This document shows positions 13,050 to 38,718 of a stretch of 64,000 nucleotides of DNA, piece after piece. Every line of letters starts with the position of its first letter. Position 1 is the stretch's first letter. The translations under genes were made by a program, and so were the position numbers. Origin of the DNA: Neobacillus sp. DY30 (lineage in GTDB: Bacteria > Bacillota > Bacilli > Bacillales > Cytobacillaceae). The DNA is taken from assembly GCF_030123065.1 (NCBI RefSeq), contig NZ_CP126093.1, positions 810,001 to 874,000 of the forward strand, read 5' to 3'. The notes under the pieces were generated by a model that saw only the letters and a program-made list of their open reading frames with translations, had not been told where the DNA came from and did not search any database.

Positions 13050-15122
13050 GTGCTTGTATATTTGAATGCTGCAGCAGTTCTAGCTGTGACAGGATATGCT
13101 TTGTATTTATTTATTCAAATCGTATACAGCCGGTATTTGTTTGTGAAGCTCGGCAAGAAAACCGAATTTGAACTGAACCTTAAAGAACGATTGAATAGTG
13201 TGTTCGTCAACGGGTTTGGTCAAAGGAAATTGTTTAAAGACAAGAAAAGCGGTCTGATGCATTTGATCCTGTTCTATGGTTTTTTCATCATTCAAATTGG
13301 ACTCATTGAAATCATCATCAAGGGGTTTATCAAAGGATACGAATTCCCACTTGGCACCCTGCACAAATATTTCAGTCTTATGCAGGAGTGGACGACCTTC
13401 CTCATGCTGTGCGCAGTAGTATTTGCCTTTTACCGTCGCTATATTGAGAAATTAAAGCGTTTACAGCTCAGAAGAGATTTCAAAGCGGCTGTTGTCATTA
13501 TTGCCTTAACCACGCTGACAGCTTCCATCCTGCTCACGCTGGGTTTTGAAACTGTGATGCTCGGGCATGAACCGGATTTCATCTATGCTCCAATCTCTGG
13601 TGCGGTTGCTGCGGTGTTCTCGGGCATTAGCACGAGTACAGGAACAATATTGTTCTACGTATTTTGGTGGGTACACCTACTGACCGTGTTGTCCTTCATG
13701 GTTTTCGTCCCGCAGTCAAAGCAAGCGCATGAGCTATTCGCGTTATTTAACTTGTTTTTCAAGAAAGTCGGTCCTGTTGGAAAATTGAGTAAAATCGATT
13801 TCGAGGATGAAGAGGCTGAGGAATTCGGTGTTGGAAAAATCGAGAATTTTACCCAACGGCAGTTGATCGATTTGTATGCCTGCGCAGAATGCGGACGATG
13901 TACAAACATGTGTCCTGCCTCCGGTACAGGTAAGACCCTTTCACCAATGGAACTCATTTTGAAAATGCGAAACCACCTGACGGAAAAGGGAGCTTCGATT
14001 ACATCGCGTTCGCCTTGGGTGCCAGCCTTTGCTTTTAAGGCAAATTCCAGTCCAATGGCTCTACAAGCAACAGCGGGCGGGAATTCCGAGGTAGCCGCTT
14101 CTGTCGAAACACCAAATCTAATCGGGGATATCATCACGGAAGAGGAACTGTGGGCATGTACGACATGCCGAAATTGTGAAGATCAATGTCCGGTAATGAA
14201 TGAGCATGTTGACAAAATTATCGATATGCGCAGGTTCTTGGTTATGTCGCAAGGAGAAATGCCTGCTGAAGCTTCACGCTATTTCAATAATATCGAGAGA
14301 CAAGGAAACCCTTGGGGCTCGAACCGCAATGAACGCATCAAATGGCGTGAAGGCATGGAGGATATTATCAAGACCGTCGATGAAACGCCTGAATTTGATG
14401 TTTTATTCTGGGTAGGATCAATGGGCTCTTACGACATCCGCAGCCAGAAGATTGCCCGGTCCTTTGCCCGTCTGCTGCACAAGGCTGGGGTGAAATTTGC
14501 GATTCTAGGCAATGAAGAGATGAACTCAGGGGACACAGTGCGCCGGATGGGGAACGAGTACTTATTTCAGGAATTATGTACTCAAAACATTGAGACGTTC
14601 CAAAAATACGGCGTACGCAAAATTGTGACGACAGATCCCCATGCATTTAACACCTTTAAAAATGAGTACCCGGAATTTGGGCTGGAAGCGGAAGTCGTTC
14701 ACCATACTCAACTTCTGGCTGATCTATTAAAAGAAGGCAGACTTAAGCCAACGAAGAAGGTTGAAGAAAAAGTGGCCTATCATGACTCTTGTTATATTGG
14801 ACGCTACAATGATATCTACGGTTCGCCGAGGGAAATACTGCGTGCAATCCCGGGAATTAAGCTGCTCGAGATGGAACGAAACCAGGAAAATGCACTTTGC
14901 TGCGGAGCCGGCGGAGGCAGGATGTGGATGGAAGAGCGCGAAGGGACACGGGTAAATATAGCCCGGACGGAAATGGCGCTTCAAACGAACCCGACGGTCA
15001 TTGGTAGCAATTGCCCTTATTGTTTAACGATGCTTACCGATGGTACGAAGGCTAAGGAAGTCGAGGAACAGGTGCAGACGCTGGATATTGCTGAAATCAT
15101 TGAAAAGTCAGTGGAATTTTAA
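13050..15122 (+). CDS. Membrane Fe-S oxidoreductase, FadF/EtfD-like (ETF:menaquinone oxidoreductase candidate)
   Basis: 690 residues. About five membrane segments in residues 1-235 resemble the NarI-type cytochrome b domain. Two 4Fe-4S cluster motifs follow: Cys278/281/284/288 (CAECGRCTNMCP) and Cys370/373/376/380 (CTTCRNCEDQCP). Two CCG domains end the protein (SCYIGRYND, ALCCGAGGGRMW, NCPYCLTML). Same architecture as B. subtilis FadF and mycobacterial EtfD, which pass electrons from electron-transfer flavoprotein to the quinone pool. EtfBA and an acyl-CoA dehydrogenase are encoded about 8-14 kb downstream. GTG 13050 follows AAAGGAAG. Confidence 0.8.
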   Translation: MLVYLNAAAVLAVTGYALYLFIQIVYSRYLFVKLGKKTEFELNLKERLNSVFVNGFGQRKLFKDKKSGLMHLILFYGFFIIQIGLIEIIIKGFIKGYEFPLGTLHKYFSLMQEWTTFLMLCAVVFAFYRRYIEKLKRLQLRRDFKAAVVIIALTTLTASILLTLGFETVMLGHEPDFIYAPISGAVAAVFSGISTSTGTILFYVFWWVHLLTVLSFMVFVPQSKQAHELFALFNLFFKKVGPVGKLSKIDFEDEEAEEFGVGKIENFTQRQLIDLYACAECGRCTNMCPASGTGKTLSPMELILKMRNHLTEKGASITSRSPWVPAFAFKANSSPMALQATAGGNSEVAASVETPNLIGDIITEEELWACTTCRNCEDQCPVMNEHVDKIIDMRRFLVMSQGEMPAEASRYFNNIERQGNPWGSNRNERIKWREGMEDIIKTVDETPEFDVLFWVGSMGSYDIRSQKIARSFARLLHKAGVKFAILGNEEMNSGDTVRRMGNEYLFQELCTQNIETFQKYGVRKIVTTDPHAFNTFKNEYPEFGLEAEVVHHTQLLADLLKEGRLKPTKKVEEKVAYHDSCYIGRYNDIYGSPREILRAIPGIKLLEMERNQENALCCGAGGGRMWMEEREGTRVNIARTEMALQTNPTVIGSNCPYCLTMLTDGTKAKEVEEQVQTLDIAEIIEKSVEF

Positions 15123-15146
15123 AAGGATAATATAGGAGATGAATTC

Positions 15147-16883
15147 ATGAACAACACAGAAAAGTTCGAAAGGTACACGACAGCTGATGCTTTGATGGAA
15201 GCATTGCAGGAAGTCGGCATTTCCTACCTGTTTTGCAATCTAGGCAGCGATCATCCTTCGATGATTGAGGCCTTGGCAAAAGCCAAGGAGGAAGGGAAGG
15301 AACTTCCCAAGGCCATCATTTGTCCACATGAAAGTACCGCTTTATCCGCAGCTCAAGGGTATGCAATGCTGACAGGCCAGGCGCAGGGCGTGATTATTCA
15401 TACGGATGTGGGAACTCAAAATCTGGGAGGTGCTGTTCATAATGCATTTCGAGCTCGCGTTCCGGTGTTCATTTTCGCTGGAGAAACACCGATCACCATG
15501 GACGGAGAGCTTCCGGGCAGCCGCAATTCCTATGTGAATTATCTGCAAAATGTATACGATCAGCGTGGAATCCTAAGGTCTTATGTCAAATGGGAATCAG
15601 ATATCAGAACGGGAAAGAACGTTAAACAACTCATTTACCGGGCGATGCAGATGGCTCAAAGTGATCCAGCTGGACCGGTTTATTTGACCGGAGCAAGAGA
15701 AGTGCTGGAGGAAAATGTGGAGAAACTGCCAGACTCTTGGGGGGAATGGGCGCTAATTGAACAATCCTCCTTACCCAAATGGGGTCTTGATGAAATCGTA
15801 AGCGCTTTATTAGAATCCCAAAATCCATTGTTGATTACTTCTTATTTAGGTAGAAATACGAAAGCGGTCTCAGAATTAATTGAATTTTGCGAAAAAGTGG
15901 CTATACCTGTTGTGGAACAGATTCCTTCTTTCGTTAATTTCCCGAGGGACCATAATCTGCATCTGGGGTACGATCCAAATCCATTTGTTTTCGAAGCAGA
16001 TGTCATTATCGCCATTGATACGGATGTTCCTTGGGTCGCTACACAAGTTAAGCCAAAGGACGAATGTAAAGTCTACTATATTGATTTAGACCCAATTAAG
16101 GAAGACATTCCATTATGGCACATTCCCGCGGTAAAGAATTATCGTGCGGATGCCTATGCGTCCTTAATTCAATTAAATGATCATCTGGCCCAGAGGGATA
16201 TTAATCAGGAGCAAGTACAAGAACGTTATCTCCGTTTAGCCAAATACCATGAAGAGCAGCGTGAAGCTTGGAAGCAGAAAGAACAAGGGGAAGGAAACAC
16301 GATTTCGCCAGAATGGCTTACGGCTTGTTTGCGTCATGTGGTGGACACTGAGACCATCATATTAGATGAGACGATTACGAATACCATGACGGTAGCCAAA
16401 CATTTACCGCGCTCAAAGACAGGCACCTACTTTAGCAGCGGAGGTACATCCTTAGGATGGAACGGTGGCGCAGCTATTGGAATCAAGCTCGCTGATCCAA
16501 CGAAAACCGTAGTCAATTTAACCGGTGACGGTTCATACTTATTCAGCGTTCCAGCCTCGGTTCACTGGATGTCGCGCAGATATCAAGCGCCATTCCTGAC
16601 GGTCATTTACAACAATGAAGGCTGGAATGCAACGAAGCAGAATCTATTAAAGCGGTATCCAGACGGCATAGCCAAACAAACGGACCGTTACTGGGTGAAT
16701 TTTGACCAACCGGCCGATCTAGCAAAAATCGCTGAAGCGGCAGGGGGAGCATACGCCAGGATGGTGACAGATCCAATGGAGTTACCTGAAGTATTACAGC
16801 AGGCCATGAATGAAGTGAAAAACGGTAAGTCAGCTGTTGTAGATGTCCGCCTGGCTAAAGTTTCGAATCAAAAAGATTATTAA
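15147..16883 (+). CDS. Thiamine diphosphate-dependent enzyme (acetolactate synthase/benzoylformate decarboxylase superfamily)
   Basis: 578 residues in the three-domain ThDP fold. The catalytic glutamate is Glu62 in CPHESTAL. A central domain lies at about 200-340. The cofactor motif runs from Gly460-Asp461-Gly462 to Asn489-Asn490, the expected 30-residue span. The superfamily includes 2-oxo acid decarboxylases, acetolactate synthase and 2-hydroxyacyl-CoA lyases, and I cannot choose among them. With the aldehyde dehydrogenase at 20110, decarboxylation of an aryl 2-oxo acid to an aldehyde then acid is one option (inference). It follows the Fe-S protein by 24 bases. Confidence 0.75.
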   Translation: MNNTEKFERYTTADALMEALQEVGISYLFCNLGSDHPSMIEALAKAKEEGKELPKAIICPHESTALSAAQGYAMLTGQAQGVIIHTDVGTQNLGGAVHNAFRARVPVFIFAGETPITMDGELPGSRNSYVNYLQNVYDQRGILRSYVKWESDIRTGKNVKQLIYRAMQMAQSDPAGPVYLTGAREVLEENVEKLPDSWGEWALIEQSSLPKWGLDEIVSALLESQNPLLITSYLGRNTKAVSELIEFCEKVAIPVVEQIPSFVNFPRDHNLHLGYDPNPFVFEADVIIAIDTDVPWVATQVKPKDECKVYYIDLDPIKEDIPLWHIPAVKNYRADAYASLIQLNDHLAQRDINQEQVQERYLRLAKYHEEQREAWKQKEQGEGNTISPEWLTACLRHVVDTETIILDETITNTMTVAKHLPRSKTGTYFSSGGTSLGWNGGAAIGIKLADPTKTVVNLTGDGSYLFSVPASVHWMSRRYQAPFLTVIYNNEGWNATKQNLLKRYPDGIAKQTDRYWVNFDQPADLAKIAEAAGGAYARMVTDPMELPEVLQQAMNEVKNGKSAVVDVRLAKVSNQKDY

Positions 16884-16985
16884 TCTAAGTTTTTCTGAAA
16901 TTATGATTTCGTTGGGAGGTGATGAACAGTTAAATAAGTTTTGAGATTAAAGCTGTGAAATTTAAAATTTGGGGGAATTTTAGAA

Positions 16986-18005
16986 ATGAAAAAGTTCATT
17001 ATGCTCTGTTTGACAGCTTTACTTATTGTACTGGCAGGTTGTGCTCAATCTTCACAATCAACGGGTTCGAATGAATCTACGGCAGCCAAAAATGAAAAAC
17101 AAACAAAAGTTGAGTATCCGACAAGACCGATTGAAGTACTTGTACCATTTGCTGCGGGCGGCTCTACAGACATCGGTGCAAGAATCATAGAAAAATACCT
17201 TCCTAAATATTTGCCCGGTGCCAAGCTTGTAATTGTGAATAAACCAGGCGGCAGCGGCTCAATTGCCATCACGGATTTATTTAACTCCAAGCCTGATGGA
17301 TACACCCTTGCAATGTCTACTCACCGTGCTATTTCCATGCAGCCTTTGTATGGGAATGTGAAATACTCCCATGACAGTTTTCAACCTATCTCAAAAGTAT
17401 TCGGTAACCAGCAAATCATGATAGTTAAAGCAGATGCCCCTTGGAAAACGTTTGAAGAATGGCTTGATTATGTGAAGAAAAACCCTGGTAAATTCTCATA
17501 TGGTGTAGCTGGCGGGATTGGATCAGGAGCGCATATACCGGTGGCAGAACTGGAAAAGCAGGCGGGCTTTGAAGCAAAGGCCGTATCATTTGAAGGCACG
17601 CCTCCAGCAATCACAGGTGTTTTAGGCGGGCATGTTCAGGGGGCTATGGTACAGCCTAGTGATGCCAAGGCGCTAATTGAATCTGGTGAGCTGCGCGGAT
17701 TATTTAATGTTGCAAGTGTACCTGTTCCTTATTTTCCAGAAATCCCACTTTTGAAAGATAAAGGCTTCGATGTTGCGATTGACAGCAATACCTCGCTTTT
17801 TGCACCGAAGGGTGTGCCAGAAGAAATTGTTACGATGCTAGAAGAAGCGCTTAAGAAAACAATGGAAGATCCTGAAGTGTTAGCAGAATTCAAGAAAGTC
17901 TCTTTACAGACTCAATATGGCAATCCTGAGGTTGTCCAAAAAGAGGTTGATGCAGAGAATGTTAGATTTGGAAAAATGTTGAAAGAACTAGGGTTTATTA
18001 AATAA
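16986..18005 (+). CDS. TctC-family substrate-binding lipoprotein of a tripartite tricarboxylate transporter
   Basis: 339 residues with a lipoprotein signal peptide: LIVLAGC gives lipidation at Cys19. The mature part begins PTRPIEVLVPFAAGGSTDIG, the TctC/Bug family hallmark, and PGGSGSIA is the second ligand-binding loop. It should capture a carboxylate outside the membrane for the TctB/TctA pair directly downstream. Bug proteins bind very varied carboxylates, aromatic ones among them, so the name does not prove citrate. GGGGGAA precedes ATG. Confidence 0.9.
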   Translation: MKKFIMLCLTALLIVLAGCAQSSQSTGSNESTAAKNEKQTKVEYPTRPIEVLVPFAAGGSTDIGARIIEKYLPKYLPGAKLVIVNKPGGSGSIAITDLFNSKPDGYTLAMSTHRAISMQPLYGNVKYSHDSFQPISKVFGNQQIMIVKADAPWKTFEEWLDYVKKNPGKFSYGVAGGIGSGAHIPVAELEKQAGFEAKAVSFEGTPPAITGVLGGHVQGAMVQPSDAKALIESGELRGLFNVASVPVPYFPEIPLLKDKGFDVAIDSNTSLFAPKGVPEEIVTMLEEALKKTMEDPEVLAEFKKVSLQTQYGNPEVVQKEVDAENVRFGKMLKELGFIK

Positions 18006-18094: not shown

Positions 18095-18547
18095 ATGAGT
18101 AATTACAGATCAGGAATTTTGGCTGGTGCAGTCATTTTCCTTCTAGCTCTTTTCTTGTTTGTACTGTCCTTGCAGTATTCCTATTCTAGTGCTCTTGGAC
18201 CGGGACCGGGCTTCTTTCCTACTTGGTTGAGCGGTATCCTGATGGCTCTCTCAATTTGGTATATCTATGAAAGCGTAAAAGGGAAAAATGTAAGCGGTGA
18301 ATCGTGGCCAACGGGACGTTCTTTCAAACATATTTTGTTTATCATTATCAGTTTGGTCCTTTTCGTTATTCTCTTTTCTTTATTCGGATTCGTAGTTGCG
18401 GGTGTTACCTTTTTGGCCCTTTTGTTTTACAAAGAGTATAAATGGTACACCAACTTATTAATGTCTGTTGGAATCACAGCATTTATTTACTTGTTGTTTA
18501 ATACAGTTTTAAAGGTGTACTTACCTTTAGGCGGGATACTTTTTTAG
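18095..18547 (+). CDS. TctB-family small membrane subunit
   Basis: 150 residues with four predicted membrane segments, length and layout of TctB. LGPGPGFFPTWLSG after the first segment is the family motif. Lies between the binding protein and TctA (12-bp gap to TctA), so translation is probably coupled. Confidence 0.88.
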   Translation: MSNYRSGILAGAVIFLLALFLFVLSLQYSYSSALGPGPGFFPTWLSGILMALSIWYIYESVKGKNVSGESWPTGRSFKHILFIIISLVLFVILFSLFGFVVAGVTFLALLFYKEYKWYTNLLMSVGITAFIYLLFNTVLKVYLPLGGILF

Positions 18548-18559: not shown

Positions 18560-20065
18560 ATGGATTCATTGTTATTGCTTTTGCATGGATTTGAAACGGC
18601 ATTGAGCTGGTCAAATCTTCTCTACTGCCTTATTGGTGTAATGCTAGGGATGGTCATCGGCGTTCTCCCTGGTCTTGGTCCAGTATCTGGTACTGCTTTG
18701 CTTATTCCGATTACTTTTGGGATGGAGCCAGTCACTGCTATTATTATGCTTTCCGGAATCTTCTATGGATCGATGTATGGAGGAACGATTACTTCTGTAT
18801 TAGTGAACGTGCCAGGTGAGGCTGCATCGGTCATTACATGTATTGACGGTTATGAGATGACGAAGCAGGGGCGTTCGGGAGCGGCACTTGGGGTGGCTGC
18901 AATTGGCTCATTTATCGGCGGGATTGTTGCTGTAACCGCACTTACATTTGTAGGTCCAGCTTTGTCTAAAATTGCGTTGAAATTTGGTCCTCCGGAGTTC
19001 TTTGCTATTATGCTGCTTGGCATGCTGATGATTGTGGCATTGATGGGAAAGTCTTTAGTCAGGGGATTAATTGCTGCATTCCTCGGTTTATTGCTTGCGA
19101 TGGTAGGACAAGACATGGTCACTGGAGAATTCCGTTTCACATTTAACTCCATAGAGTTGATGGATGGAATTGATTTTGCGGTCATGGCCATGGGTCTGTT
19201 TGGAATTTCAGAGATTTTGCTAAATGCAGAAAACCCAACAAAAGTCTCCAAACCGGAAAAGGTCACAGGTCTTCTTCCTAAGCGGGAAGAATGGGGACCA
19301 ACTCTTAAATCCGTCGGAAGGGGAACGGGCATCGGAATGCTTCTTGGAGTCATCCCAGGTGCAAACTCCATTATTGCGTCAACCTTTTCCTATATTTTAG
19401 AAAAAAAGGTTGCCAAGGATCCATCCCGCTTTGGAAAAGGAGCGATCGAGGGGGTAGCAGGACCTGAGACGGCGAATAACGCCCACAGCGGTGCAGCTTT
19501 AATTCCTTTATTTTCCCTAGGACTGCCAAGCTCGCCTACGATGGCGGTTATTTTAGGAGCGTTTGTGATGCATGGATTAACGCCAGGACCAGCCCTGTTT
19601 ACGAAAAATCCGGACTTTGTATGGGGCCTGATTGCAAGTATGTTTATTGGAAATGTTTTATTGCTGATCATGAACATGCCTTTAGTCGGTATGTGGGCAA
19701 AAATTGCGATGATACCGTATAAGTTATTGTTTCCGATTATCCTGATGGTCATTTTAGTTGGAACCTACAGTCTAAATGGCAGCCTTTGGGATGTTTCGAT
19801 GATGCTGATTTTTGGGGTTATTGGTTATATCCTAAAGAAATTAGATATCCCGATGTCCGCAATGATTGTAACTTTTATATTAGGGTCCCAATTGGAGACT
19901 TCCATGCTGCAATCCTTATCTATTTCAACTGAAGGTTTTCTTATCTTTTTTACACAGCCAATTTCAGCCGTTATCATGGGCATTGCCCTCATTATATTTG
20001 CCATTAGCATCTATAGCGGAGTGAAAAATAAGCGTGGGAATCTCGCGGACGATGTTGAAATGTAA
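18560..20065 (+). CDS. TctA-family large membrane subunit
   Basis: 501 residues, about 11-12 membrane segments. GVLPGLGPVSGTALLIP near the N terminus and a similar GVIPGANSIIAS in the second half are the duplicated TctA motifs. PETANNAHSGAALIPLFSLG is also typical. Forms the channel unit of the Na+ or H+ coupled tripartite system with the two preceding genes. ATG follows AGGGGGGCAG. Confidence 0.92.
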   Translation: MDSLLLLLHGFETALSWSNLLYCLIGVMLGMVIGVLPGLGPVSGTALLIPITFGMEPVTAIIMLSGIFYGSMYGGTITSVLVNVPGEAASVITCIDGYEMTKQGRSGAALGVAAIGSFIGGIVAVTALTFVGPALSKIALKFGPPEFFAIMLLGMLMIVALMGKSLVRGLIAAFLGLLLAMVGQDMVTGEFRFTFNSIELMDGIDFAVMAMGLFGISEILLNAENPTKVSKPEKVTGLLPKREEWGPTLKSVGRGTGIGMLLGVIPGANSIIASTFSYILEKKVAKDPSRFGKGAIEGVAGPETANNAHSGAALIPLFSLGLPSSPTMAVILGAFVMHGLTPGPALFTKNPDFVWGLIASMFIGNVLLLIMNMPLVGMWAKIAMIPYKLLFPIILMVILVGTYSLNGSLWDVSMMLIFGVIGYILKKLDIPMSAMIVTFILGSQLETSMLQSLSISTEGFLIFFTQPISAVIMGIALIIFAISIYSGVKNKRGNLADDVEM

Positions 20066-20109
20066 TTTAGGAGCGAATGAAATGAAAGGGACATAACGAG
20101 GTGAAGCAC

Positions 20110-21555
20110 ATGAAGGTGAACTTGTTCATAAACAATGAAGATGTGACAACAGAGCATTATGAGGAAGTGAGGGATCCAGGCAGATTAAGTGAAGTAGTTG
20201 GTTTTATCGCCAAGGGGGATCCAGGCTATATTGATCGGGCTGTGCAAGCTGCACATCAAGCCTTCCACTTCTGGCGCCAAAATACACTTAATGAAAGAAT
20301 GTCAATCCTATTAAAATCCGCTGAAGAAATTGAGAAAAATATGTCATCTATCGCCAGTGTGACGGCAAAAGAAAACGGCATGCTGCTTGGCAGAACCATT
20401 GATGAAGTCAAGTTAGGCTTGATGGATATGAGAACTATAATAGAATTGGCGCCTTCTGCCTTTCAACAACGGATTATAGAGGATGAAAGCGGCTGGGTCA
20501 ACGTAGTGAAGAGGCCGATGGGTGTGATAGCTTGTATCGTTCCTTGGAATGCCCCTATTATTCTAACTCTGCAAAAAATAACGCCGATCCTTCTTGCTGG
20601 CAATACAATCGTAGTTAAACCGTCTCCAACTGCTTCAATGGGAGTAGTAACAATATTAAAAACAATGGCGGAATTTTTCCCGCCAGGCGTAATTAATGTT
20701 GTTCTTGGCGGTGGTGATGTAGGAAGTGCTTTAACTTCTCATCCGCTCGTACGTAAAATTTCCTTTACTGGCGGAGGGAGTACTGCCGTGGCAATCATGA
20801 AATCTGCTGCTGACACACTTAAAGGGGTTCACTTTGAATTAGGGGGTAACGACCCAGCTATTGTACTGAACGACGCCGATCTTAATGAAGTCGTTCCCAA
20901 AATTGTAGAAGGAGCATTTCGAAGGACAGGTCAATTCTGTTTTGCGATTAAGCGCGTTTACATTCCTTATAGTATGTATGATGAGTTCTATGAAAAGGCT
21001 TGCGAGTTTACAGACTCCTATAAAATCGGGTATCAATTGAATGAAGAAGCTACAATGGGGCCAATTAACAACCAACTTCAATATCAAAGGATTATTGAAC
21101 TAATTGAAAGACTGGAACACAGCGGGGCTAATTTAGTCAAGTTAGGAAAGCAGCTTGAACCTGAGAATTGGGATAACGGATACTATCTTCAGCCAGTTAT
21201 TGTAAGGGATGTCGATCCTTACGCTGAGATTGTGACCTGTGAACAATTTGGTCCAGTGCTCCCGTTGATTCCCTATCATACGGAAGAAGAAGTGATTCAT
21301 ATGGCCAACAATTCTGAATTTGGTTTGGGTTCTTCTGTATGGTCTTCAGATTTTGACCGTGCATTAGACGTTGCGAACAGAATAGAAGCGGGTATGACCT
21401 TTATAAATGGTCATGGGCAGACACCATTAGGTTCAAAATACATCCCGTTCGGCGGAATTAAGCAAAGTGGAATCGGAAGAGAAAAGTCTATCAAAGTTTT
21501 TGATGAATTTATCGAATACCATGGAATTAATTTCCACAAAAAAGGCATTAATTGA
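20110..21555 (+). CDS. Aldehyde dehydrogenase (NAD(P)+)
   Basis: 481 residues from ATG 20110, which has GAGGTG six bases upstream (GTG 20101 is possible). ALDH superfamily: the Rossmann GVIACIVPWNAP segment, general base Glu243 in FELGGNDPAIV, nucleophile Cys277 in GQFCFAIKR, and PFGGIKQSGIGRE near the end. The family oxidises aldehydes to acids. The pairing with the ThDP enzyme suggests a benzaldehyde-type substrate (inference). Last gene before a terminator-like hairpin at 21562. Confidence 0.88.
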   Translation: MKVNLFINNEDVTTEHYEEVRDPGRLSEVVGFIAKGDPGYIDRAVQAAHQAFHFWRQNTLNERMSILLKSAEEIEKNMSSIASVTAKENGMLLGRTIDEVKLGLMDMRTIIELAPSAFQQRIIEDESGWVNVVKRPMGVIACIVPWNAPIILTLQKITPILLAGNTIVVKPSPTASMGVVTILKTMAEFFPPGVINVVLGGGDVGSALTSHPLVRKISFTGGGSTAVAIMKSAADTLKGVHFELGGNDPAIVLNDADLNEVVPKIVEGAFRRTGQFCFAIKRVYIPYSMYDEFYEKACEFTDSYKIGYQLNEEATMGPINNQLQYQRIIELIERLEHSGANLVKLGKQLEPENWDNGYYLQPVIVRDVDPYAEIVTCEQFGPVLPLIPYHTEEEVIHMANNSEFGLGSSVWSSDFDRALDVANRIEAGMTFINGHGQTPLGSKYIPFGGIKQSGIGREKSIKVFDEFIEYHGINFHKKGIN

Positions 21556-21561: not shown

Positions 21562-21597
21562 AAAAAGCTCTCCAGATTTGGGGAGTCCTTTTTATTT
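21562..21597 (+). terminator. Terminator after the aldehyde dehydrogenase gene
   Basis: AAAAAGCTCTCC pairs imperfectly with GGGGAGTCCTTTTT and ends in T-rich sequence. It would close the first forward transcription unit. Confidence 0.6.
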
Positions 21598-21639
21598 CCA
21601 TTCCTTTTGATATGAACTTCTATCTTGGCGGTGAATCAA

Positions 21640-26965: not shown

Positions 26966-27007
26966 ATTAATAGATATAAATAATTGTAGAAGATGGAGGT
27001 ATATAAG

Positions 27008-28168: not shown

Positions 28169-28197
28169 AAGAGATTCAAGAAAGGAGGGCGATTTGT

Positions 28198-30433: not shown

Positions 30434-30467
30434 TTCCACTAAAGAATCAAATGGAAGGAGTATCATA

Positions 30468-31394: not shown

Positions 31395-32534
31395 ATGTCG
31401 GAACATAAATCAAATCAACAATGGACACCAGAATTGCTGGATTTCTATCAGGAGCTGAAGGATCAGAATATGGGTCCCTTATGGGCATCCGTATTCAGCT
31501 CCCCACAGCCAAAGCCCCGAGCAGTTCCCTATATGTGGAAAAAGAATCAGATTCTCAAAGCGCTGGACAAAGCAAAGGAGCTGCTCCAGGTAGGTACGGG
31601 ATCCATTGATCGGCGAGCGGTATATTTAATCAATCCTGGTATGAAGAATTTGGAGCCACACGGTTGGGGCGGGGCAACGCAAACACTGTATGCTGCCGTT
31701 CAAGCTCTTAATCCAGGGGAAATTGCCCCATCTCACAGGCATATGACTTCAGCGCTGCGGTTTATTATGGAAGGTCAGGGCGCATCGGGAATTGTGAACG
31801 GTGTGAAATATCATTTCGAACCGGGGGACTACGTCATTACGCCGGAGTGGTGCTGGCACGATCATGTAAATGAAGGAAATGAAACGGTGTTGTGGATGGA
31901 CTGTTTAGATATCCCTTTCACTTCGGCATTGACAAGTTCCTTCTTCGAACTGTATCCAGAGGAGCAGCAGCCGGTTGAGTTTCCTGATGATTACGGCACA
32001 AAGCGTTATGCAGGCGGGATGGTACGGCCGATTTCGGATCGCAAGCCAACACCTGCACCGCTCGGACGATACACATGGGATTTGACGAAACAAGCACTGG
32101 ATGGACAAAGTGAATTTGTTCCTGATAAATTCGACGGGTTCGCAGTGGAATATTTCAATCCTTCCACCGGCAAAGACGCAAATGGAAGGATTGGCGCCAG
32201 AATGCAGAAACTGCCGCTTCAATATAAGGGAAAAGCGCATCGTCATATGCACAGCTCGGTATATCATGTACACAAGGGACGCGGGTACACGGTGATGAAC
32301 GGTATTCGTTTTGACTGGGAAGCGGGCGACTTCTTCGCACTCCCGGCCTGGACATGGCATGAGCACGTGAATACATCGGAAACAGAAGAGGCATTTTTGT
32401 TCTCTACGAATGATCTGCCGATTTTGGAGCCTTTTGGCTTTGAAAGAGAAGAAGCATATACAGAAAATGGCGGTTATCAGGAGATCCTATCCGTTTTTGA
32501 GACTGAACACTCAGATGTTATAGCAATAGATTAA
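31395..32534 (+). CDS. Gentisate 1,2-dioxygenase
   Basis: 379 residues in two cupin domains, usual length for the enzyme. The first domain has NPGEIAPSHRHMTSALRF with iron ligands His114 and His116, and His155 in WCWHDHVNEG. The second domain repeats the pattern in KAHRHMHSSVYHV and PAWTWHEHVN. It opens gentisate (2,5-dihydroxybenzoate) between C1 and C2 using Fe(II) and O2 to give maleylpyruvate. Neighbours are an FAH hydrolase and a flavin hydroxylase able to supply gentisate. The 93-base gap before it shows no clear operator. Confidence 0.9.
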   Translation: MSEHKSNQQWTPELLDFYQELKDQNMGPLWASVFSSPQPKPRAVPYMWKKNQILKALDKAKELLQVGTGSIDRRAVYLINPGMKNLEPHGWGGATQTLYAAVQALNPGEIAPSHRHMTSALRFIMEGQGASGIVNGVKYHFEPGDYVITPEWCWHDHVNEGNETVLWMDCLDIPFTSALTSSFFELYPEEQQPVEFPDDYGTKRYAGGMVRPISDRKPTPAPLGRYTWDLTKQALDGQSEFVPDKFDGFAVEYFNPSTGKDANGRIGARMQKLPLQYKGKAHRHMHSSVYHVHKGRGYTVMNGIRFDWEAGDFFALPAWTWHEHVNTSETEEAFLFSTNDLPILEPFGFEREEAYTENGGYQEILSVFETEHSDVIAID

Positions 32535-32570: not shown

Positions 32571-33755
32571 GTGGGAGAAGTTAAAGAAGTGATCGTTGTA
32601 GGCGGGGGAATTGGCGGTTTAGCTGCTGCTTACGGTATAGCTAAATTAGGAAAAAAGGTAACACTGCTTGAGCAGGCGCCACAGTTTGGTGAGGTGGGCG
32701 CAGGATTACAGGTAGGTCCCAATGGCTTGCGGGCGTTGGATGCTTTGGGAGTCCTGGAAGAAGTCTATAAGTTGGCGGTGTTTCCTCGCCGTCATGTGTT
32801 CATGGACGCGTTAAGCGGCAAGGAGCTGTCGGCTGTTCAATTTGGAGAATCATTCCGCGGGCGCTTCGGGTATCCATACATTGTTATTCATCGTTCTGAT
32901 TTGCATAGTGTCTTACTGAAGGCTTGTCAATCTCTAGATAATGTTTCATTCTTAACCAATCATAAATTGGAATCCGTTAAAGAATTCGCTGATTATGTAG
33001 AATTACGTTGTGAAAACGGAGCGGTACTACTGGCGGAAACAGTAATCGGTGCTGACGGTATCCGTTCAATGACTCGTAAAATAGTAAGTCAAGCAGAACC
33101 AATTATCTCTCAGTATGTGGCATATCGCTTTACCGTTCCAATGACAGAAATGACGATTGATATCGACTGGGACGAGAAATTAACGTGGATCGGACCTGGT
33201 ATTCATCTAGTACAATATCCGGTACGTCATAAGAGTGTAATTAATCAGGTAGCTGTGTTCAAAAGCTATAAATATAATAAGGACTCCGATGATTGGGGAA
33301 CAGCGGAAGAACTGCATCAAATGTTTGCCGATAGCTGTTCGACCATTAAAGAATCCCTGAAGTTTGCAAATCGCGGTTTAATCACAAAGCTGTTTGATAT
33401 CGAACCGTTGGAAAAGTGGTCAACCAATCGCGTTACACTGCTGGGAGATAGTGCTCATGCGATGCTGCAATATCTTGCACAAGGGGCTTGTCAGGCACTT
33501 GAAGATGCAGTTTGTTTAACGGAAAAAATACGTGCCAACGGCTCAAATACAGCAAAAGCGTTGGACGAATATCAACAAGAACGTATTCCTAGAACGGCAG
33601 AGGTACAGCGTGGGGCAAGGACTTGGGGAGAAATCAAGCATGCAGAAGATTCGGTTACAAGACTCCTTCGTAATACAATCATGCTGAATCGTTCAGCAGA
33701 CGATTACAAATATTTAGATTGGTTATACAAAGAGAGAGTTCTTACCACTGTTTAA
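32571..33755 (+). CDS. FAD-dependent monooxygenase, 3-hydroxybenzoate 6-hydroxylase-like
   Basis: 394 residues of the single-component aromatic hydroxylase family. GxGxxG at 11-16 (VVGGGIGGLAAA), the DG motif in VIGADGIRSMTR, and the GD motif in VTLLGDSAHAMLQYLAQGAC. It uses NAD(P)H and O2. Next to gentisate dioxygenase, para-hydroxylation of 3-hydroxybenzoate is the most likely reaction. A salicylate-type substrate cannot be excluded. GTG 32571 follows AAAGGGGTGATCAC. A hairpin at 33787 follows the gene. Confidence 0.85.
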   Translation: MGEVKEVIVVGGGIGGLAAAYGIAKLGKKVTLLEQAPQFGEVGAGLQVGPNGLRALDALGVLEEVYKLAVFPRRHVFMDALSGKELSAVQFGESFRGRFGYPYIVIHRSDLHSVLLKACQSLDNVSFLTNHKLESVKEFADYVELRCENGAVLLAETVIGADGIRSMTRKIVSQAEPIISQYVAYRFTVPMTEMTIDIDWDEKLTWIGPGIHLVQYPVRHKSVINQVAVFKSYKYNKDSDDWGTAEELHQMFADSCSTIKESLKFANRGLITKLFDIEPLEKWSTNRVTLLGDSAHAMLQYLAQGACQALEDAVCLTEKIRANGSNTAKALDEYQQERIPRTAEVQRGARTWGEIKHAEDSVTRLLRNTIMLNRSADDYKYLDWLYKERVLTTV

Positions 33756-33786
33756 AATTAAGCAGGCAGGTTCTACACAAGTAGTT

Positions 33787-33881: not shown

Positions 33882-35093
33882 ATGAAATCTATTAAATCGA
33901 GAGGTCCTTTAGAGGGTATCCGCATTCTTGATTTGTCAACGGTTATTGCTGCCCCCTATGGTGCCGCACTTCTTGGTGATTTTGGGGCAGAAGTTATAAA
34001 AATTGAGATGCCAAAGGTCGGCGATCCATTGCGGAATCTTGGTCCCTATTATAAAGGGGAAGGATTAAGATGGCCGGGGATGTCTAGGAACAAGAAATCC
34101 ATTACGTTGGATTTGCGTCAGGAAGAGGGGAAGGAAATTCTCCGGAAGCTGGTTAGCAAATCGGATATGGTCATTGAAAACTTCCGAACCGGTACACTGG
34201 AAAAATGGGGGATTGGCTATGAAGAGCTAAAGAAATACAAGGCTGATTTAGTGATGATCAGGGTAACTGGCTATGGACAGACCGGTCCTTATTCACACAA
34301 AGCAGGGTTCGGTACACCCGCCACAGCCTTCAGCGGTTTTACATATCTGCATGGATACCCTGATCGTCCGCCGATTAGCCCTTCTTTTTCCTTAGCCGAT
34401 TATGTAACAGGAATTTATGTCGCTTTTGCAGCGGTTACAGCCTTGTATCACAGGGACTGTCAAGATGAAGGAACAGGTCAGTACGTGGATGTCAGTTTAT
34501 ATGAATCAATGTTCAGAATGATGGAATTTTTGGTTACAGATTATGACCAGACTGGCAACATTAAGGAAAGGTCACCAGGTTTGAGCGGTCACTCAGCACC
34601 TGCAGGAAATTTCCTGACTAAGGACGGACAGTGGATTATTTTGGTTACGAGCTCCGACAAGACCTTTGAACGTTTGGCAAAAGCCATGAATCGAGAAGAT
34701 ATGCTGACGGATGAACGCTATCATACCAATTCAGTCCGATTGACCCGATTTGATGAAGTCAATGGGATCGTCTCTGATTGGGTGAAAACGAAAACAAAGG
34801 ATGAACTGCAGCATCTCCTAGACGAATGCGGTGTACCGATGAGTCAAATCTACAGCATCAAGGATATTTATGAAGATCCTCAGTATCAGGCGAGAGAAAA
34901 TATTGTTGAAGTTGAACATCCACGTCTAGGTAAAGTGAAAATCCCTGGGATTGTTCCTAAATTTTCTGAAACACCAGGTTCCATCAGGCAAATTGCTCCG
35001 GATTTAGGCGAGCATAATGATGAAATCCTAAAAGATCTGTTGGAGCTGGACGGTGAAACCATTGATAGTTTAAAAGAGAAAAAAGTGATATAA
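33882..35093 (+). CDS. Family III (CaiB/BaiF) CoA-transferase, copy 2
   Basis: 403 residues. LEGIRILDLSTVIAAPYGA and LLGDFGAEVIKIEMPKVGDP mark the family, NKKSITLDLR is typical, and the catalytic aspartate is in SLADYVTGIYVA. Divergent from copy 1 at 24794 (for example the region around the catalytic Asp), so probably another substrate. Followed after 14 bases by a lyase gene, repeating the transferase-lyase order of 24794-26965. Confidence 0.87.
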   Translation: MKSIKSRGPLEGIRILDLSTVIAAPYGAALLGDFGAEVIKIEMPKVGDPLRNLGPYYKGEGLRWPGMSRNKKSITLDLRQEEGKEILRKLVSKSDMVIENFRTGTLEKWGIGYEELKKYKADLVMIRVTGYGQTGPYSHKAGFGTPATAFSGFTYLHGYPDRPPISPSFSLADYVTGIYVAFAAVTALYHRDCQDEGTGQYVDVSLYESMFRMMEFLVTDYDQTGNIKERSPGLSGHSAPAGNFLTKDGQWIILVTSSDKTFERLAKAMNREDMLTDERYHTNSVRLTRFDEVNGIVSDWVKTKTKDELQHLLDECGVPMSQIYSIKDIYEDPQYQARENIVEVEHPRLGKVKIPGIVPKFSETPGSIRQIAPDLGEHNDEILKDLLELDGETIDSLKEKKVI

Positions 35094-35107
35094 AGGAGTG
35101 TTCGAAC

Positions 35108-36049
35108 TTGGCGAGTAATAGAAAGGTTATCATTACTGAGGTTTGTCCAAGGGACGGATTTCAAAGCGTTAGTGAATGGATTCCAACGGAAGAAAAAGTC
35201 AGAATTATTAATCAACTGATAGATTGTGGCTATAAACAGATTGAGGTTACTTCTTTTGTACATCCTAAAGCAATTCCGCAATTGAAGGATGCAGATGAAG
35301 TGTTGAAAAGAATTAAACGCTCGGAACATGTGAAGCTGCGGGCATTAGTTCCAAATACCCGCGGTTTAGAAAGAGCCATAGCATCTGGCGTAGACAAGGT
35401 AAAGCTGATGTTGTCTGCTTCCGATTCTCATAGCATAAGCAATGCAAACTGCAAGACGGAAGAGGCTTTTCAGAAGTTTGTACCGTTAGTCGAACTCGGA
35501 GAAAAAAGTGGCATGAAGGTGTCGGGATCAATATCTGTTGCGTTTGGATGTCCTTATGAAGGTGAAATACCGGTTGAACGTCTCTTGATGATCTGTGAAC
35601 GATATCGTTCCTTAGGAATTAAGGAAGTTTCACTGGCAGATACAACAGGTATGGCAAATCCACTGCGAATTAAAAACAATGTTCGGAAATTAATGAGGAA
35701 TTTTCCAGACTTTACTTTTTCCCTTCATCTTCATAATACAAGAGGTATGGCATTTGCCAATGCCGTGGCCGGCTGGGAGGAAGGCATTGTACATTTTGAC
35801 AGTTCTGCTGGCGGATTGGGAGGCTGTCCTTATGCACCCGGAGCGAGCGGCAATATAGCGTCTGAGGATTTGATTCATGGATTTGAGGAAATGGGGATTC
35901 ATACGGGAGTTTCATTAAAAAGCGTATTGGAGGCTGCAAAGGATATTCAGCAAAGTCTTCCACACTATGTAGACAGTTTTTTACTGAAAGCAGGCAAATG
36001 TTCGGACTTATCCGTAAGTCCAATGACGCAGCAAAAAGTGGAGTTATAG
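35108..36049 (+). CDS. HMG-CoA lyase-like enzyme, copy 2
   Basis: 313 residues from TTG 35108, with AAGGAG nine bases upstream. Unlike copy 1 it keeps the canonical residues: CPRDGFQS with the metal Asp, HLHNTRG, and the catalytic-loop GGCPYAPGASGNIAS. Expected to cleave a 3-hydroxy-3-substituted dicarboxyl-CoA to a 2-oxo acid or acetoacetate plus acetyl-CoA. Its last 52 bases overlap the long open frame of the next gene, but not that gene's likely start. Confidence 0.85.
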   Translation: MASNRKVIITEVCPRDGFQSVSEWIPTEEKVRIINQLIDCGYKQIEVTSFVHPKAIPQLKDADEVLKRIKRSEHVKLRALVPNTRGLERAIASGVDKVKLMLSASDSHSISNANCKTEEAFQKFVPLVELGEKSGMKVSGSISVAFGCPYEGEIPVERLLMICERYRSLGIKEVSLADTTGMANPLRIKNNVRKLMRNFPDFTFSLHLHNTRGMAFANAVAGWEEGIVHFDSSAGGLGGCPYAPGASGNIASEDLIHGFEEMGIHTGVSLKSVLEAAKDIQQSLPHYVDSFLLKAGKCSDLSVSPMTQQKVEL

Positions 36050-36072
36050 TTAGGAGAAACGGAGGATTACGA

Positions 36073-38718
36073 GTGTATCAGCAAAAGTTAAGTACTGCCA
36101 ACGGATCGGTTGCCATATACAGTCTGCAGTTGTTGGGACAAAGTGGCTTTGTGAATGTGGATAACTTGCCATACACAACGAAGATTCTGCTTGAATCGCT
36201 CATGCGAAATCAAAGCAGAATCGGGTTTACAGAACAGGATTTGATCCGGATGGCTTCCAGAAGCTCTAATGAATCAGTTGAAATCCCGCTTATGCCCACA
36301 CGAGTCATTATGCAGGATGCATCGGGTGTGCCGGCTTTAGTTGACTTGGTGTCGCTTCGTCAACGATTGATGGAGGAAGGAATCGATCCAAATCAGGTAA
36401 ATCCCGTTATTCCCGTTGATTTGGTTATCGACCATTCGGTTAAAGTTGATTACTTTGGAACGGCATCTGCGTTCTCAAAAAATCTTCAACTAGAATATGA
36501 ACGAAATCAGGAAAGATACAAGTTTTTAAAATGGGCGCAGCAATCCTTTAATGACATTCGCGTCGTACCGCCAGCGAACGGAATTATTCATCAAGTAAAC
36601 ATGGAATGTTTGACTAAAATTGTACAATTATCAAATCAGAATCATGAGAGAATAGCCCATCTCGAAATGGTTATTGGGACGGATTCTCATACCACAATGG
36701 TGAATGCATTAGGTGTGCTGGGCTGGGGGGTGGGAGGAATCGAAGCGGAATCAGCCATGCTTGGTATCCCTGTCAGTATACCAATACCTGAAGTGGTGGG
36801 AGTCGAAATTACTGGGCAATTAAATGAGGGAGTTACAGCGACGGATGTTGCCTTAACGATCACTCAGCTTCTAAGAAAGCACAATGTCGTGGGTAAATTT
36901 GTTGAATTCTTTGGTCCCAGCTTAAAGTATCTTTCCCTTCCCGATCGGGCGACCATATCAAATATGGCACCAGAATATGGGGCAACCTGCGGCTTCTTTC
37001 CGGTTGATGATGAGACGTTGAAATTTTTGCGTATGACGGGCAAACAGGATGAGGAAGTCGATCTTGTAGAGCGATATTGTAAAGAACAAGGACTGTTCCA
37101 TATATCCGATTCCAGCAGAAAAAGAAAAGCTTATTCCGACTTTTTGGTGTTTGATTTACAGTCGGTGGAAGCGAGTGTTTCTGGCCCAAGGCGTCCGCAA
37201 GACAGAATGCCGCTTCGCGCGGTGAGACAATCGTTTCCCAAATCCCTGTCTCCCATTGAGGAAAACAATATAAATATCAAGAGCACACCATTAAATGATG
37301 GATCCATCGTGATTGCAGCCATCACAAGCTGTACGAATACATCAAACCCCTTCAATATGATAGGTGCAGGTCTTTTGGCCAAGAAGGCGGTGGAGAAAGG
37401 CTTAACCGTACCCAAAACCATTCAGACTTCTTTGGCACCTGGTTCGAAGGCTGTTACAGCATATTTGCAAAAAGCAGGATTGCTGCCATATTTAGAAAAG
37501 CTGGGATTTTATCATGCTGGTTACGGATGTGCAGTATGTGTGGGCAACAGCGGCAAATTGGATGAAAAAGTAGAACATGCGATTCAGGAGCATGATTTGA
37601 CGGTAGCGGCCGTATTAAGCGGAAACCGTAATTTTGAAGGACGCATTCACGCCTTAGTAAAAGCTAACTATTTGGCCTCCCCTCCTTTGGTCATCGCCTT
37701 TGCTATCGCAGGCACCATAAATATTGATTTGGAATCCGAACCGCTGGGTCGATCTGCATCGGGCAAAGAGGTCTATTTGAAGGATATTTGGCCAAGTTCC
37801 GAGGAAATTGCTAGCTTGATAGATTCCACGATTTCATCCGATGTATTCCGCGAATCCTATGAAAATGTGTTTGAAGGCGACGATAGATGGCAGGCTCTAG
37901 AATATGATGAACATCCGATTTTTAGGTGGGATGATCGGTCCACGTACTTTAAAGCCTCTCCTTTCTTCAAGGCAGAGATTACAGAATACCAGCCAGGAGA
38001 TATTCACCAAGCAAGAGTTTTGTTAATGCTTGGTGATTCCGTTACAACAGACCATATTTCGCCGGTCGGCCATATTCCTTATGATAGTACTGCCGGACAA
38101 TACCTTCTTCAGCATGACGTCAAATCCGTCGACTTTAATTCTTACGGATCGCGCCGAGGAAATCACGAGGTACTTGTCAGGGGGACTTTTGCCCATCCGA
38201 GGCTAAAGAATAAACTAGTAGAGAAAACAGGCGGTTTAACCCGTTATGTACCGAGCGGGGAAGAAATGGATGTCTATTCTGCCTCCATGATTTACCAACA
38301 GGAAAATACGCCGCTGATCATCTTAGCCGGTAAAGACTATGGGATGGGGAGTGCAAGAGATTGGGCTGCTAAAGGCACTTATCTCCTCGGCGTTAGGGCA
38401 GTCATAGCGGAAAGTTTTGAACGCATCCACCGCAGTAACCTGGCCATGATGGGGATTGTGCCCCTTCAATTTATGCCTGGCGAAAACTATGAATCGATGA
38501 ATCTGAACGGCATAGAGACCTATTCTATCATAGGGTTGAATGAGCCGCTCAGCCCGTTTCAAAAGATGAGGGTTGAAGCTATTAAACCGGATGGCTCAAG
38601 GACCGCGTTCCAGACGGTGTTGCGTTTGGATACCCGCATGGAGATTCATCTATATTTGAAAAAAGGTGTTTTTCAGAATATCCTAGACCAATGGGTAGAG
38701 AGAATAGAAGTATTATGA
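36073..38718 (+). CDS. Aconitase A-family hydratase (AcnA paralogue)
   Basis: 881 residues from GTG 36073, which has GGAGG seven bases upstream; an earlier ATG at 35998 lies inside the lyase gene. All three 4Fe-4S cysteines are kept: Cys420 (SCTNTSNP), Cys486 and Cys489 (GYGCAVCVGN). GTDSHTTMVNALGVLGWG and GMGSARDWAAKG are conserved too. GCAVCVG replaces the common GCTTCIG. The N-terminal segment (VYQQKLSTANGSVAIYSLQ) is divergent. It is probably not the housekeeping aconitase; candidates are 2-methylcitrate dehydratase or hydration of maleate or a citramalate-type acid. Last gene of the island. Confidence 0.85.
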   Translation: MYQQKLSTANGSVAIYSLQLLGQSGFVNVDNLPYTTKILLESLMRNQSRIGFTEQDLIRMASRSSNESVEIPLMPTRVIMQDASGVPALVDLVSLRQRLMEEGIDPNQVNPVIPVDLVIDHSVKVDYFGTASAFSKNLQLEYERNQERYKFLKWAQQSFNDIRVVPPANGIIHQVNMECLTKIVQLSNQNHERIAHLEMVIGTDSHTTMVNALGVLGWGVGGIEAESAMLGIPVSIPIPEVVGVEITGQLNEGVTATDVALTITQLLRKHNVVGKFVEFFGPSLKYLSLPDRATISNMAPEYGATCGFFPVDDETLKFLRMTGKQDEEVDLVERYCKEQGLFHISDSSRKRKAYSDFLVFDLQSVEASVSGPRRPQDRMPLRAVRQSFPKSLSPIEENNINIKSTPLNDGSIVIAAITSCTNTSNPFNMIGAGLLAKKAVEKGLTVPKTIQTSLAPGSKAVTAYLQKAGLLPYLEKLGFYHAGYGCAVCVGNSGKLDEKVEHAIQEHDLTVAAVLSGNRNFEGRIHALVKANYLASPPLVIAFAIAGTINIDLESEPLGRSASGKEVYLKDIWPSSEEIASLIDSTISSDVFRESYENVFEGDDRWQALEYDEHPIFRWDDRSTYFKASPFFKAEITEYQPGDIHQARVLLMLGDSVTTDHISPVGHIPYDSTAGQYLLQHDVKSVDFNSYGSRRGNHEVLVRGTFAHPRLKNKLVEKTGGLTRYVPSGEEMDVYSASMIYQQENTPLIILAGKDYGMGSARDWAAKGTYLLGVRAVIAESFERIHRSNLAMMGIVPLQFMPGENYESMNLNGIETYSIIGLNEPLSPFQKMRVEAIKPDGSRTAFQTVLRLDTRMEIHLYLKKGVFQNILDQWVERIEVL

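Follow-up and report, generated by a model that had tools for sequence, protein, structure and literature searches.

What kind of catabolism would place genes for opening an aromatic ring and genes for degrading acyl-CoA esters side by side on one strand? The question is raised by a stretch of 64,000 nucleotides of Neobacillus sp. DY30 (contig NZ_CP126093.1, positions 810,001 to 874,000; hereafter the window). Within this genome of 6.14 Mb, open reading frames together with NCBIfam and Pfam matches delimit 20 co-directional genes on the + strand at positions 13050-38718 of the window (Table 1). An earlier note had described a 19-gene island there; its coordinates, direction and named families hold, but the count is 20, and the members it left unnamed, namely a thiamine diphosphate (ThDP)-dependent enzyme, the TctABC transporter, an aldehyde dehydrogenase (ALDH), an MFS transporter and an aconitase, proved important. 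The answer we tentatively prefer, with a confidence somewhat short of even, is an aerobic catabolic island in which an acyl-CoA module (module I) and a ring module (module II) would be joined by a decarboxylase. We judge the island to be a new variant built from known kinds of enzymes, and no description of the gene combination or of its ring-cleavage tail was found among the open-licence PMC papers listed by literature searches.

The gene order is kept across relatives, which is more than chance. A contig scan with the gentisate 1,2-dioxygenase-like protein of the window (GDO) gave 43 loci, on which the window proteins were searched with tblastn, longer stretches being fetched afterwards; the flanks reached at most 10 kb on each side, some contigs ending sooner, and Bacillus EB600 and a Bacillus metagenome-assembled genome (MAG) were each counted once. 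The closest GDO relatives belong to Bacillus, Niallia and Neobacillus records. The 13 genes EtfB-EtfA-CoAT1-HMGL1-ACAD-ECH-PrpD-FAH-GDO-HB6H-CoAT2-HMGL2-AcnA (Etf, electron transfer flavoprotein; CoAT, CoA-transferase; HMGL, hydroxymethylglutaryl-CoA (HMG-CoA)-lyase-type lyase; ACAD, acyl-CoA dehydrogenase; ECH, enoyl-CoA hydratase; HB6H, 3-hydroxybenzoate 6-hydroxylase-like monooxygenase) retain order and strand in all eight full relatives, at 59-99% protein identity. These are the Bacillus MAG, Niallia endozanthoxylica, Bacillus EB600, Neobacillus PS3-12, Psychrobacillus insolitus, Caryophanon tenue, C. latum and Ureibacillus terrenus, the first being 93-99% identical to the window at every gene except ALDH (85%). 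A LysR orthologue stands at the island edge in 8/8 (67-99% identity), and the ThDP gene is likewise present in all eight, or in nine of nine related clusters counting Fredinandcohnia, although in Ureibacillus the ThDP-Tct genes run divergently to the other genes of the island.

The remaining genes vary more. FadF occurs in seven of the eight full relatives and was not found in the Ureibacillus stretch; TctCBA also occurs in seven. Neobacillus PS3-12 lacks it and has an MFS gene of a different type at the corresponding position (L079 12490), apparently a swap of transporters. In the same strain ACAD and GDO each match as two overlapping pieces (L017 5370-11137), suggesting frameshifts or sequencing errors. 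ALDH is present in all ten clusters (the window and nine relatives), as two subfamilies in different places: four of the nine relatives, all four among the full ones, have the other subfamily (~30% identical), placed after AcnA. No orthologue of the MFS gene was found in the Psychrobacillus, Ureibacillus, Caryophanon and Fredinandcohnia clusters.

The earlier note had supposed that its reading would fall if the CoA and gentisate genes were never together elsewhere. They are together: all nine loci of the scan with GDO of at least 78% identity carry CoAT2-HMGL2-AcnA, and eight of them the second CoA module. The other 34 loci (GDO of at most 68%) gave no match to HMGL1, HMGL2 or AcnA within these flanks, and one of them (L048) has a CoA-transferase match (42%) ~8 kb from GDO. 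The island is sporadic, since GDO of at least 90% identity occurs in only 3 of 120 relatives' genomes, its own included. The order is conserved from EtfB to AcnA, but the island is not one indivisible set. The ninth relative, Fredinandcohnia, has the order FAH-GDO-HB6H-TAXI-DctM-CoAT2-HMGL2-AcnA-ALDH-ThDP, and two stretches of it (L015, L086) contain no FadF, EtfBA, CoAT1, HMGL1, ACAD, ECH or PrpD at 45% identity or more. Because it keeps only the ring half together with the ThDP decarboxylase and ALDH, the island consists of two separable modules, I (acyl-CoA) and II (ring). Module I can also stand alone, since the Bacilli genome G486 (L122) has PrpD(30%)-IclR-HMGL(47%)-ECH(51%)-ACAD(56%)-CoAT-CoAT(42%) with no ring or ThDP matches in 20 kb.

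In the pathway that we propose, an imported 2-substituted succinate, R-CH(COOH)-CH2-COOH, would be racemised by PrpD, activated by CoAT1 and dehydrogenated by ACAD, with the electrons leaving through EtfBA and FadF. Hydration by ECH would give R-C(OH)(COOH)-CH2-CO-CoA, which HMGL1 would split into acetyl-CoA and R-CO-COOH; the ThDP enzyme would decarboxylate this product to an aldehyde, and ALDH would oxidise the aldehyde to R-COOH, most likely a (substituted) 3-hydroxybenzoate. In module II, HB6H would form a gentisate, GDO would open its ring, and FAH would hydrolyse the (substituted) maleylpyruvate to pyruvate and (substituted) maleate. AcnA would then hydrate the latter to a (citra)malate-type acid, CoAT2 would activate that acid, and HMGL2 would split the CoA ester into acetyl-CoA and a 2-oxo acid, which would be pyruvate if the substituent were methyl. 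With considerably more doubt, we consider it possible that the whole amounts to a new pathway of aerobic catabolism. In it the side chain, of arylsuccinate type, would leave as acetyl-CoA and CO2 via an arylglyoxylate; a methyl- or otherwise substituted gentisate would be cleaved; and the remaining steps on the fragment acid would fall to an aconitase with the Ser-to-Ala change, a CoA-transferase and a lyase of the citramalyl-CoA type.

The best PDB match of CoAT1 is a succinate-hydroxymethylglutarate CoA-transferase (9br7), and that of PrpD is an iminodisuccinate epimerase. The catalytic residues of MmgE/PrpD isomerases are His, Asp/Glu, His, Tyr, His, Lys and Lys (PMC12290011). The window PrpD keeps 7/7 (H98, D101, H112, Y158, H163, K211 and K280), including the isomerase Tyr, with a spacing of 3-11-46-5-48-69, compared with 3-11-46-5-48-68 in iminodisuccinate epimerase and 3-11-46-4-50-64 in the Msi of Pseudomonas aeruginosa. 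This Tyr is also found at three other loci (L012, L014 and L016), and the Diaphorobacter and Variovorax PrpD proteins are without it. Against the PrpD equivalog models the window protein reaches only 37-46 bits; with neither a citrate-synthase nor a methylisocitrate-lyase family among the 20 genes, a methylcitrate cycle formed by AcnA and PrpD was rejected as the main explanation. Both lyases carry the PR(D/E)G, HxH, GGCP and GN motifs, HMGL1 having R-E-G where HMGL2 and the compared HMG-CoA lyases have R-D-G; the Glu replaces an Asp that we take to be a metal ligand in other enzymes of this type, and R-E-G is common to the Variovorax, Arthrobacter, Polaromonas and Novosphingobium relatives. 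ACAD lacks the C-terminal Glu of YEGT and has a Glu at a site that presumably corresponds to that of the Glu in isovaleryl-CoA dehydrogenase, an arrangement that would fit a substrate with a beta branch. HMGL1 has matches at E 1e-75 in 3 of 398 Bacilli genomes, its own included (at most five candidates being scored per genome); the other two are G486 and G382, and in G382 the lyase adjoins carboxylase genes.

In its set of enzymes, module I matches the logic of the characterised methylsuccinate cluster, with another hydratase and another lyase family. In the itaconate/methylsuccinate clusters of Cupriavidus necator and P. aeruginosa, a CoA-transferase, an ACAD and an MmgE/PrpD isomerase feed a hydratase and a citramalyl-CoA lyase (PMC12290011; PMC9875883), and C. 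necator, like the island, has a TctC gene nearby. In contrast, the island combines a crotonase-type hydratase with an HMGL-type lyase (PF00682) rather than a CitE-type lyase, brings EtfBA and FadF of its own, and is tied to the ThDP enzyme, ALDH and ring-cleavage genes. The hydratase of the known clusters is MaoC-like and their (S)-citramalyl-CoA lyase CitE-like. In an alternative that we consider unlikely, module I would simply serve methylsuccinate- or itaconate-type substrates (R = methyl, with pyruvate as product), and the aromatic module would be independent of it; the two would be neighbours because their substrates occur in one habitat, and the ThDP enzyme and ALDH would serve the aromatic side only. 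The ringless set of G486 would fit such an arrangement, as would the ThDP and ALDH genes that accompany FAH-GDO without CoA-module matches in Thalassobacillus, Bacillus FJAT-29814 and Paenibacillus piri. However, in 8/8 full relatives module I is flanked by the ThDP gene on one side and the ring genes on the other (with the divergent ThDP-Tct of Ureibacillus), and in Diaphorobacter and Variovorax a ThDP gene, of lower identity, is directly associated with PrpD and HMGL.

The reading with joined modules turns on the ThDP enzyme. It exceeds the cut-off of NF006203 (PRK08327), whose family name states no reaction. Benzoylformate decarboxylases are nearest in the PDB sequence list, and two 4-hydroxybenzoylformate decarboxylases, those of Rhodococcus jostii RHA1 and Pseudomonas fluorescens Pf-5 (7orx, 6qsi), lead the fold list. 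The enzyme resembles these two in fold and in the catalytic Ser, Glu and His, and always stands near an ALDH gene; it differs in its membership of NF006203 and in an identity of ~18-19% to them in the fold alignment. Both known decarboxylases are coupled to an aldehyde dehydrogenase. S34, E62 and H85, which align with the catalytic Ser, Glu and His of benzoylformate decarboxylase, are invariant in 13 homologues. As benzoylformate decarboxylases head both lists, an oxalyl-CoA decarboxylase or 2-hydroxyacyl-CoA lyase is not favoured, although the fold list does include a hydroxyacyl-CoA lyase, at rank 44, which leaves the latter some probability. Starting from a 2-substituted succinate, the reactions of module I would lead to precisely a 2-oxo acid, which the ThDP enzyme and ALDH would convert to a carboxylic acid.

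Distant ThDP relatives adjoin ALDH together with FAH-GDO in Thalassobacillus (twice), Bacillus FJAT-29814 and Paenibacillus piri, and adjoin it without GDO in four other stretches (L087, L126-L128). Besides its L027 cluster, Thalassobacillus has a second, diverged cluster with FAH-GDO-TRAP-ALDH-ThDP-LysR (L129), so that paralogous copies of the ThDP/ALDH/gentisate-type set coexist within a single genome. An ALDH-ThDP pair also occurs on plasmid pBHB of Comamonas 7D-2 (L098 6508-9755; ThDP 38% identical to that of the window). It is flanked on one side by a reductive dehalogenase gene, accompanied by a TctC gene, and on the other by a mercury-resistance region, a setting that may hint at what the pair does.

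Could the ring genes instead form an ordinary pathway for 3-hydroxybenzoate and gentisate, next to acyl-CoA genes that have no part in it? They resemble the direct-hydrolysis branch of the gentisate pathway (HbzF of Pseudomonas alcaligenes; PMC5658364) in that HB6H-like, GDO-like and maleylpyruvate-hydrolase-like genes adjoin. The island differs in that an aconitase-type hydratase, a CoA-transferase and an HMGL-type lyase are added to these genes. The known branch hydrates maleate with a LeuCD-type enzyme and continues as free D-malate. The nearest solved relative of FAH is a maleylpyruvate hydrolase, a matter of similarity only, as no curated equivalog is reached; GDO has both cupin His motifs (metal), and HB6H keeps the His, the Gln and both Tyr at positions that we take to be those of the catalytic residues in the Rhodococcus enzyme. 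All this agrees with the ordinary pathway, but GDO falls below the gentisate 1,2-dioxygenase equivalog TIGR02272 (259.8 vs 442.1) and HB6H below the 3-hydroxybenzoate 6-monooxygenase equivalog NF006021 (390.9 vs 459). Missed cut-offs combined with kept catalytic residues would fit a substituted substrate. Moreover, the genome contains a second GDO at 4387455 (49% identity), with an HB6H homologue (48%), an IclR-like gene and FAH (39%), and 16 kb around this cluster (L085) gave no CoA-transferase, lyase or aconitase matches, only a thiolase-like gene at the edge. Given this second HB6H-FAH-GDO cluster, the island is probably not needed for plain 3-hydroxybenzoate. As the CoA genes also stay with the ring genes across genera, and the tail does so across phyla, we regard the ordinary pathway as highly improbable.

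The comparison across phyla concerns module II. Plasmids of Novosphingobium humi and Novosphingobium KACC 22771 carry FAH-GDO-monooxygenase-CoAT-(IclR, divergent)-HMGL-AcnA, and a query with the sphingomonad lyase found five carriers at E 1e-110 among 298 genomes of the family, all five with the same order, giving seven sphingomonad loci; these were chosen by close lyase match, one weaker match (46%, in the genome of L034) being left out. The 16-29 kb stretches around them contain no ThDP, PrpD or ACAD match, and a 43% ThDP relative lies ~400 kb from the module II unit on the N. humi plasmid. Behind a FAH of the maleylpyruvate-hydrolase type, the simplest role for a hydratase, a CoA-transferase and a lyase of HMGL or CitE type would be to hydrate, activate and cleave the ring-derived C4/C5 acid. 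Because free malate would need no CoA, we would prefer an acid that bears a methyl group, in which case citraconate would be converted via citramalate to acetyl-CoA and pyruvate. The pair of (R)-citramalate CoA-transferase and (R)-citramalyl-CoA lyase in Chloroflexus is likewise a family III CoA-transferase next to an HMGL-family lyase; the pair of the island differs in standing behind a ring-cleavage hydrolase and an aconitase homologue.

More distant sets have a similar composition. Within 40 kb, Diaphorobacter HDW4B carries PrpD-ThDP-HMGL-ACAD-MaoC-MaoC-CoAT, with ALDH genes and TctC nearby, as well as FAH-cupin dioxygenase-TctC-FAD monooxygenase-ALDH and CoAT-CitE-type lyase, at low identities to the window proteins (22-47%). 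In Variovorax paradoxus an MmgE/PrpD gene adjoins the cupin dioxygenase; the cupin-dioxygenase loci of two Variovorax and of Cupriavidus include no lyase or aconitase. The suggestion of the earlier note that the ring-cleavage acid is handled as a CoA ester gains support from the sphingomonad units and from the CoA-transferase with CitE-type lyase beside the ring genes of Diaphorobacter, and its parallel suggestion for the side chain from the methylsuccinate-type module accompanied by the ThDP enzyme and ALDH.

The tail could also be placed differently, with both CoAT/HMGL pairs upstream of the ring: module I would act on the saturated R-succinate and AcnA-CoAT2-HMGL2 on the hydroxylated R-malate, both leading to an arylglyoxylate and then, through the ThDP enzyme and ALDH, to an aldehyde and a hydroxybenzoate. 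Fredinandcohnia, with CoAT2-HMGL2-AcnA-ALDH-ThDP beside ring genes and no module I in the stretches fetched, would accord with this. On the other hand, seven of seven sphingomonad units have the tail behind the ring genes in stretches free of ThDP matches, and relatives of CoAT2-HMGL2 stand with LeuCD or a citrate-type symporter with no ring-cleavage gene directly adjoining: CoAT-HMGL-citrate-type symporter on Priestia pBMG6, whose CoA-transferase is 58% identical to CoAT2, and CoAT-HMGL-LeuC-LeuD-TctC on Cupriavidus pBB2. Together with the CitE-type lyase beside CoAT in Diaphorobacter, these sets therefore indicate a small (citra)malyl-type ester, and we rate the upstream placement as improbable.

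In our preferred arrangement, the aconitase homologue would act on the ring fragment. It is 53% identical to the other AcnA of the genome and has GSARDW for GSSRDW, the changed residue being, as we assume, the second of the Ser pair next to the catalytic base, an active-site Ser-to-Ala replacement. All 17 linked aconitases share GSARDW (10/10 Bacilli island copies, i.e., the window and nine relatives, and 7/7 sphingomonad copies), and four of five other AcnA have GSSRDW (the second copy of the genome, Bacillus, Acinetobacter and Streptomyces). In a tree of 17 rows the Bacilli island copies cluster together (100/100), separate from the genome's second AcnA, and the Novosphingobium copies branch elsewhere on long branches; either common origin or convergence could account for the GSA aconitases of the two groups.

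Several observations weigh against the pathway as proposed. The fifth of the other AcnA, from pBB2 of Cupriavidus necator N-1 (L135 450-3023), also has GSA with no ring genes beside it in the short stretch fetched, and the motif is thus not specific to the ring setting; the Bacilli AcnA keep the RR motif, which we take to provide the Arg for the gamma-carboxylate, so that a tricarboxylate may still be the substrate. The sphingomonad dioxygenase and monooxygenase are only ~30% identical to those of the window, and the monooxygenase is without the Gln of the LQYLA motif, hence its substrate may differ. A Reyranella lyase 57% identical to the sphingomonad lyase occurs without the module II set, and the Diaphorobacter stretches have no AcnA match. 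As regards the link between the modules, the ThDP protein of the similar Variovorax set is just 20% identical to that of the window and the Diaphorobacter one 32%, the structure model of the window's ThDP enzyme has a middling pLDDT of 66.7, and acetolactate synthases score nearly as high by fold. Since Fredinandcohnia retains both the ThDP enzyme and ALDH without module I, the two need not follow HMGL1.

As for the starting compound, a plain 3-(3-hydroxyphenyl)propionate whose side chain is cleaved by a lyase was rejected because PrpD and the ThDP enzyme would be left without a role. We also considered 2-(3-hydroxyphenyl)succinate, an enterolignan fragment and 3-hydroxy-4-methylbenzoate (from carvacrol-type phenols), and the evidence decides for none of them.

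Table 1. Features of the island and its edges, in window positions; scores are in bits, with the model cut-off where one applies.
Feature	Position	Strand	Basis
LysR-type regulator, divergent from island	11887..12768	-	Pfam HTH_1 + LysR_substrate
FadF-like Fe-S/CCG-domain oxidoreductase, probable ETF:quinone electron acceptor	13050..15122	+	Pfam Fer4 + CCG
ThDP-dependent enzyme, benzoylformate-decarboxylase-like	15147..16883	+	NF006203 677.9, cut-off 456
TctC substrate-binding lipoprotein	16986..18005	+	Pfam TctC
TctB	18095..18547	+	Pfam TctB
TctA permease	18560..20065	+	Pfam TctA
Aldehyde dehydrogenase (ALDH)	20101..21555	+	Pfam Aldedh
MFS transporter	21625..22821	+	Pfam MFS_1
EtfB	22989..23756	+	Pfam ETF
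EtfA	23797..24768	+	Pfam ETF + ETF_alpha
CoA-transferase family III no. 1 (CoAT1), SUGCT-like	24794..25987	+	Pfam CoA_transf_3 (PF02515), 398.3
HMG-CoA-lyase-type lyase no. 1 (HMGL1), 'PREG' motif	25997..26965	+	NF004283 296.9, cut-off 246
Acyl-CoA dehydrogenase (ACAD)	26993..28168	+	Pfam
Enoyl-CoA hydratase (ECH)	28069..29004	+	Pfam ECH_1 from residue 61
MmgE/PrpD protein, predicted 2-substituted-succinate epimerase	28970..30433	+	best PDB match 2hp3
FAH-fold hydrolase, maleylpyruvate-hydrolase-like	30405..31301	+	best PDB match 6jvv, E 4.6e-77
Gentisate 1,2-dioxygenase-like bicupin (GDO)	31395..32534	+	best PDB match 3bu7
3-Hydroxybenzoate 6-hydroxylase-like FAD monooxygenase (HB6H)	32571..33755	+	best PDB match 4bjy
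CoA-transferase family III no. 2 (CoAT2)	33882..35093	+	Pfam
HMG-CoA-lyase-type lyase no. 2 (HMGL2), 'PRDG' motif	35108..36049	+	NF004283 349.8, cut-off 246
AcnA-type aconitase/hydratase, GSARDW for GSSRDW	35998..38718	+	TIGR01341 1216.3, cut-off 945
Strong terminator-like stem-loop, 18-bp stem, directly past AcnA stop	38728..38771	.	sequence scan

The intergenic gaps within the island range from -100 to 167 bp, and the genes may be transcribed as an operon. The -100 overlap of ACAD and ECH probably reflects an early start call for ECH, the true start lying near 28198, because the Psychrobacillus ECH is 43 residues shorter and the ECH domain begins only near residue 61. The sequence scan, which is no evidence of function, also marked a terminator-like site between ALDH and MFS (21567-21586); searches of the window for RNA families and tRNAs found nothing.

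A catechol meta-cleavage block adjoins the island at 1450-11723 of the window, with genes for a flavin reductase, a 2-oxopent-4-enoate hydratase-like protein, an MFS transporter, a PucR/XylR_N-type regulator, a BphD/HsaD-like hydrolase, an HsaA-like monooxygenase, a catechol 2,3-dioxygenase-like protein and an AbrB-type membrane protein. It is largely retained in the relatives, adjacent or elsewhere, and is accompanied by acetaldehyde dehydrogenase and DmpG genes in locus L123. An HsaA homologue (at least 71% identity) occurs in 9/9 genomes with the full island versus 0/6 others. The block was left outside the proposed pathway, as its extradiol dioxygenase (at least 94% identity) is also found in seven genomes of the same genus without the island GDO.

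The pathway proposed here would give a testable function to families for which annotation mostly supplies no more than a name, and which are seen together here on catabolic islands and plasmids, namely the CaiB/BaiF CoA-transferases, 'hydroxymethylglutaryl-CoA lyase', MmgE/PrpD, PRK08327 and TctC. It predicts a route for 2-substituted succinates larger than methylsuccinate and, in two phyla (Bacilli and Sphingomonadaceae), a CoA-dependent end to the gentisate pathway. GSARDW would be a candidate sequence mark of catabolic relatives of the tricarboxylic acid cycle aconitase.

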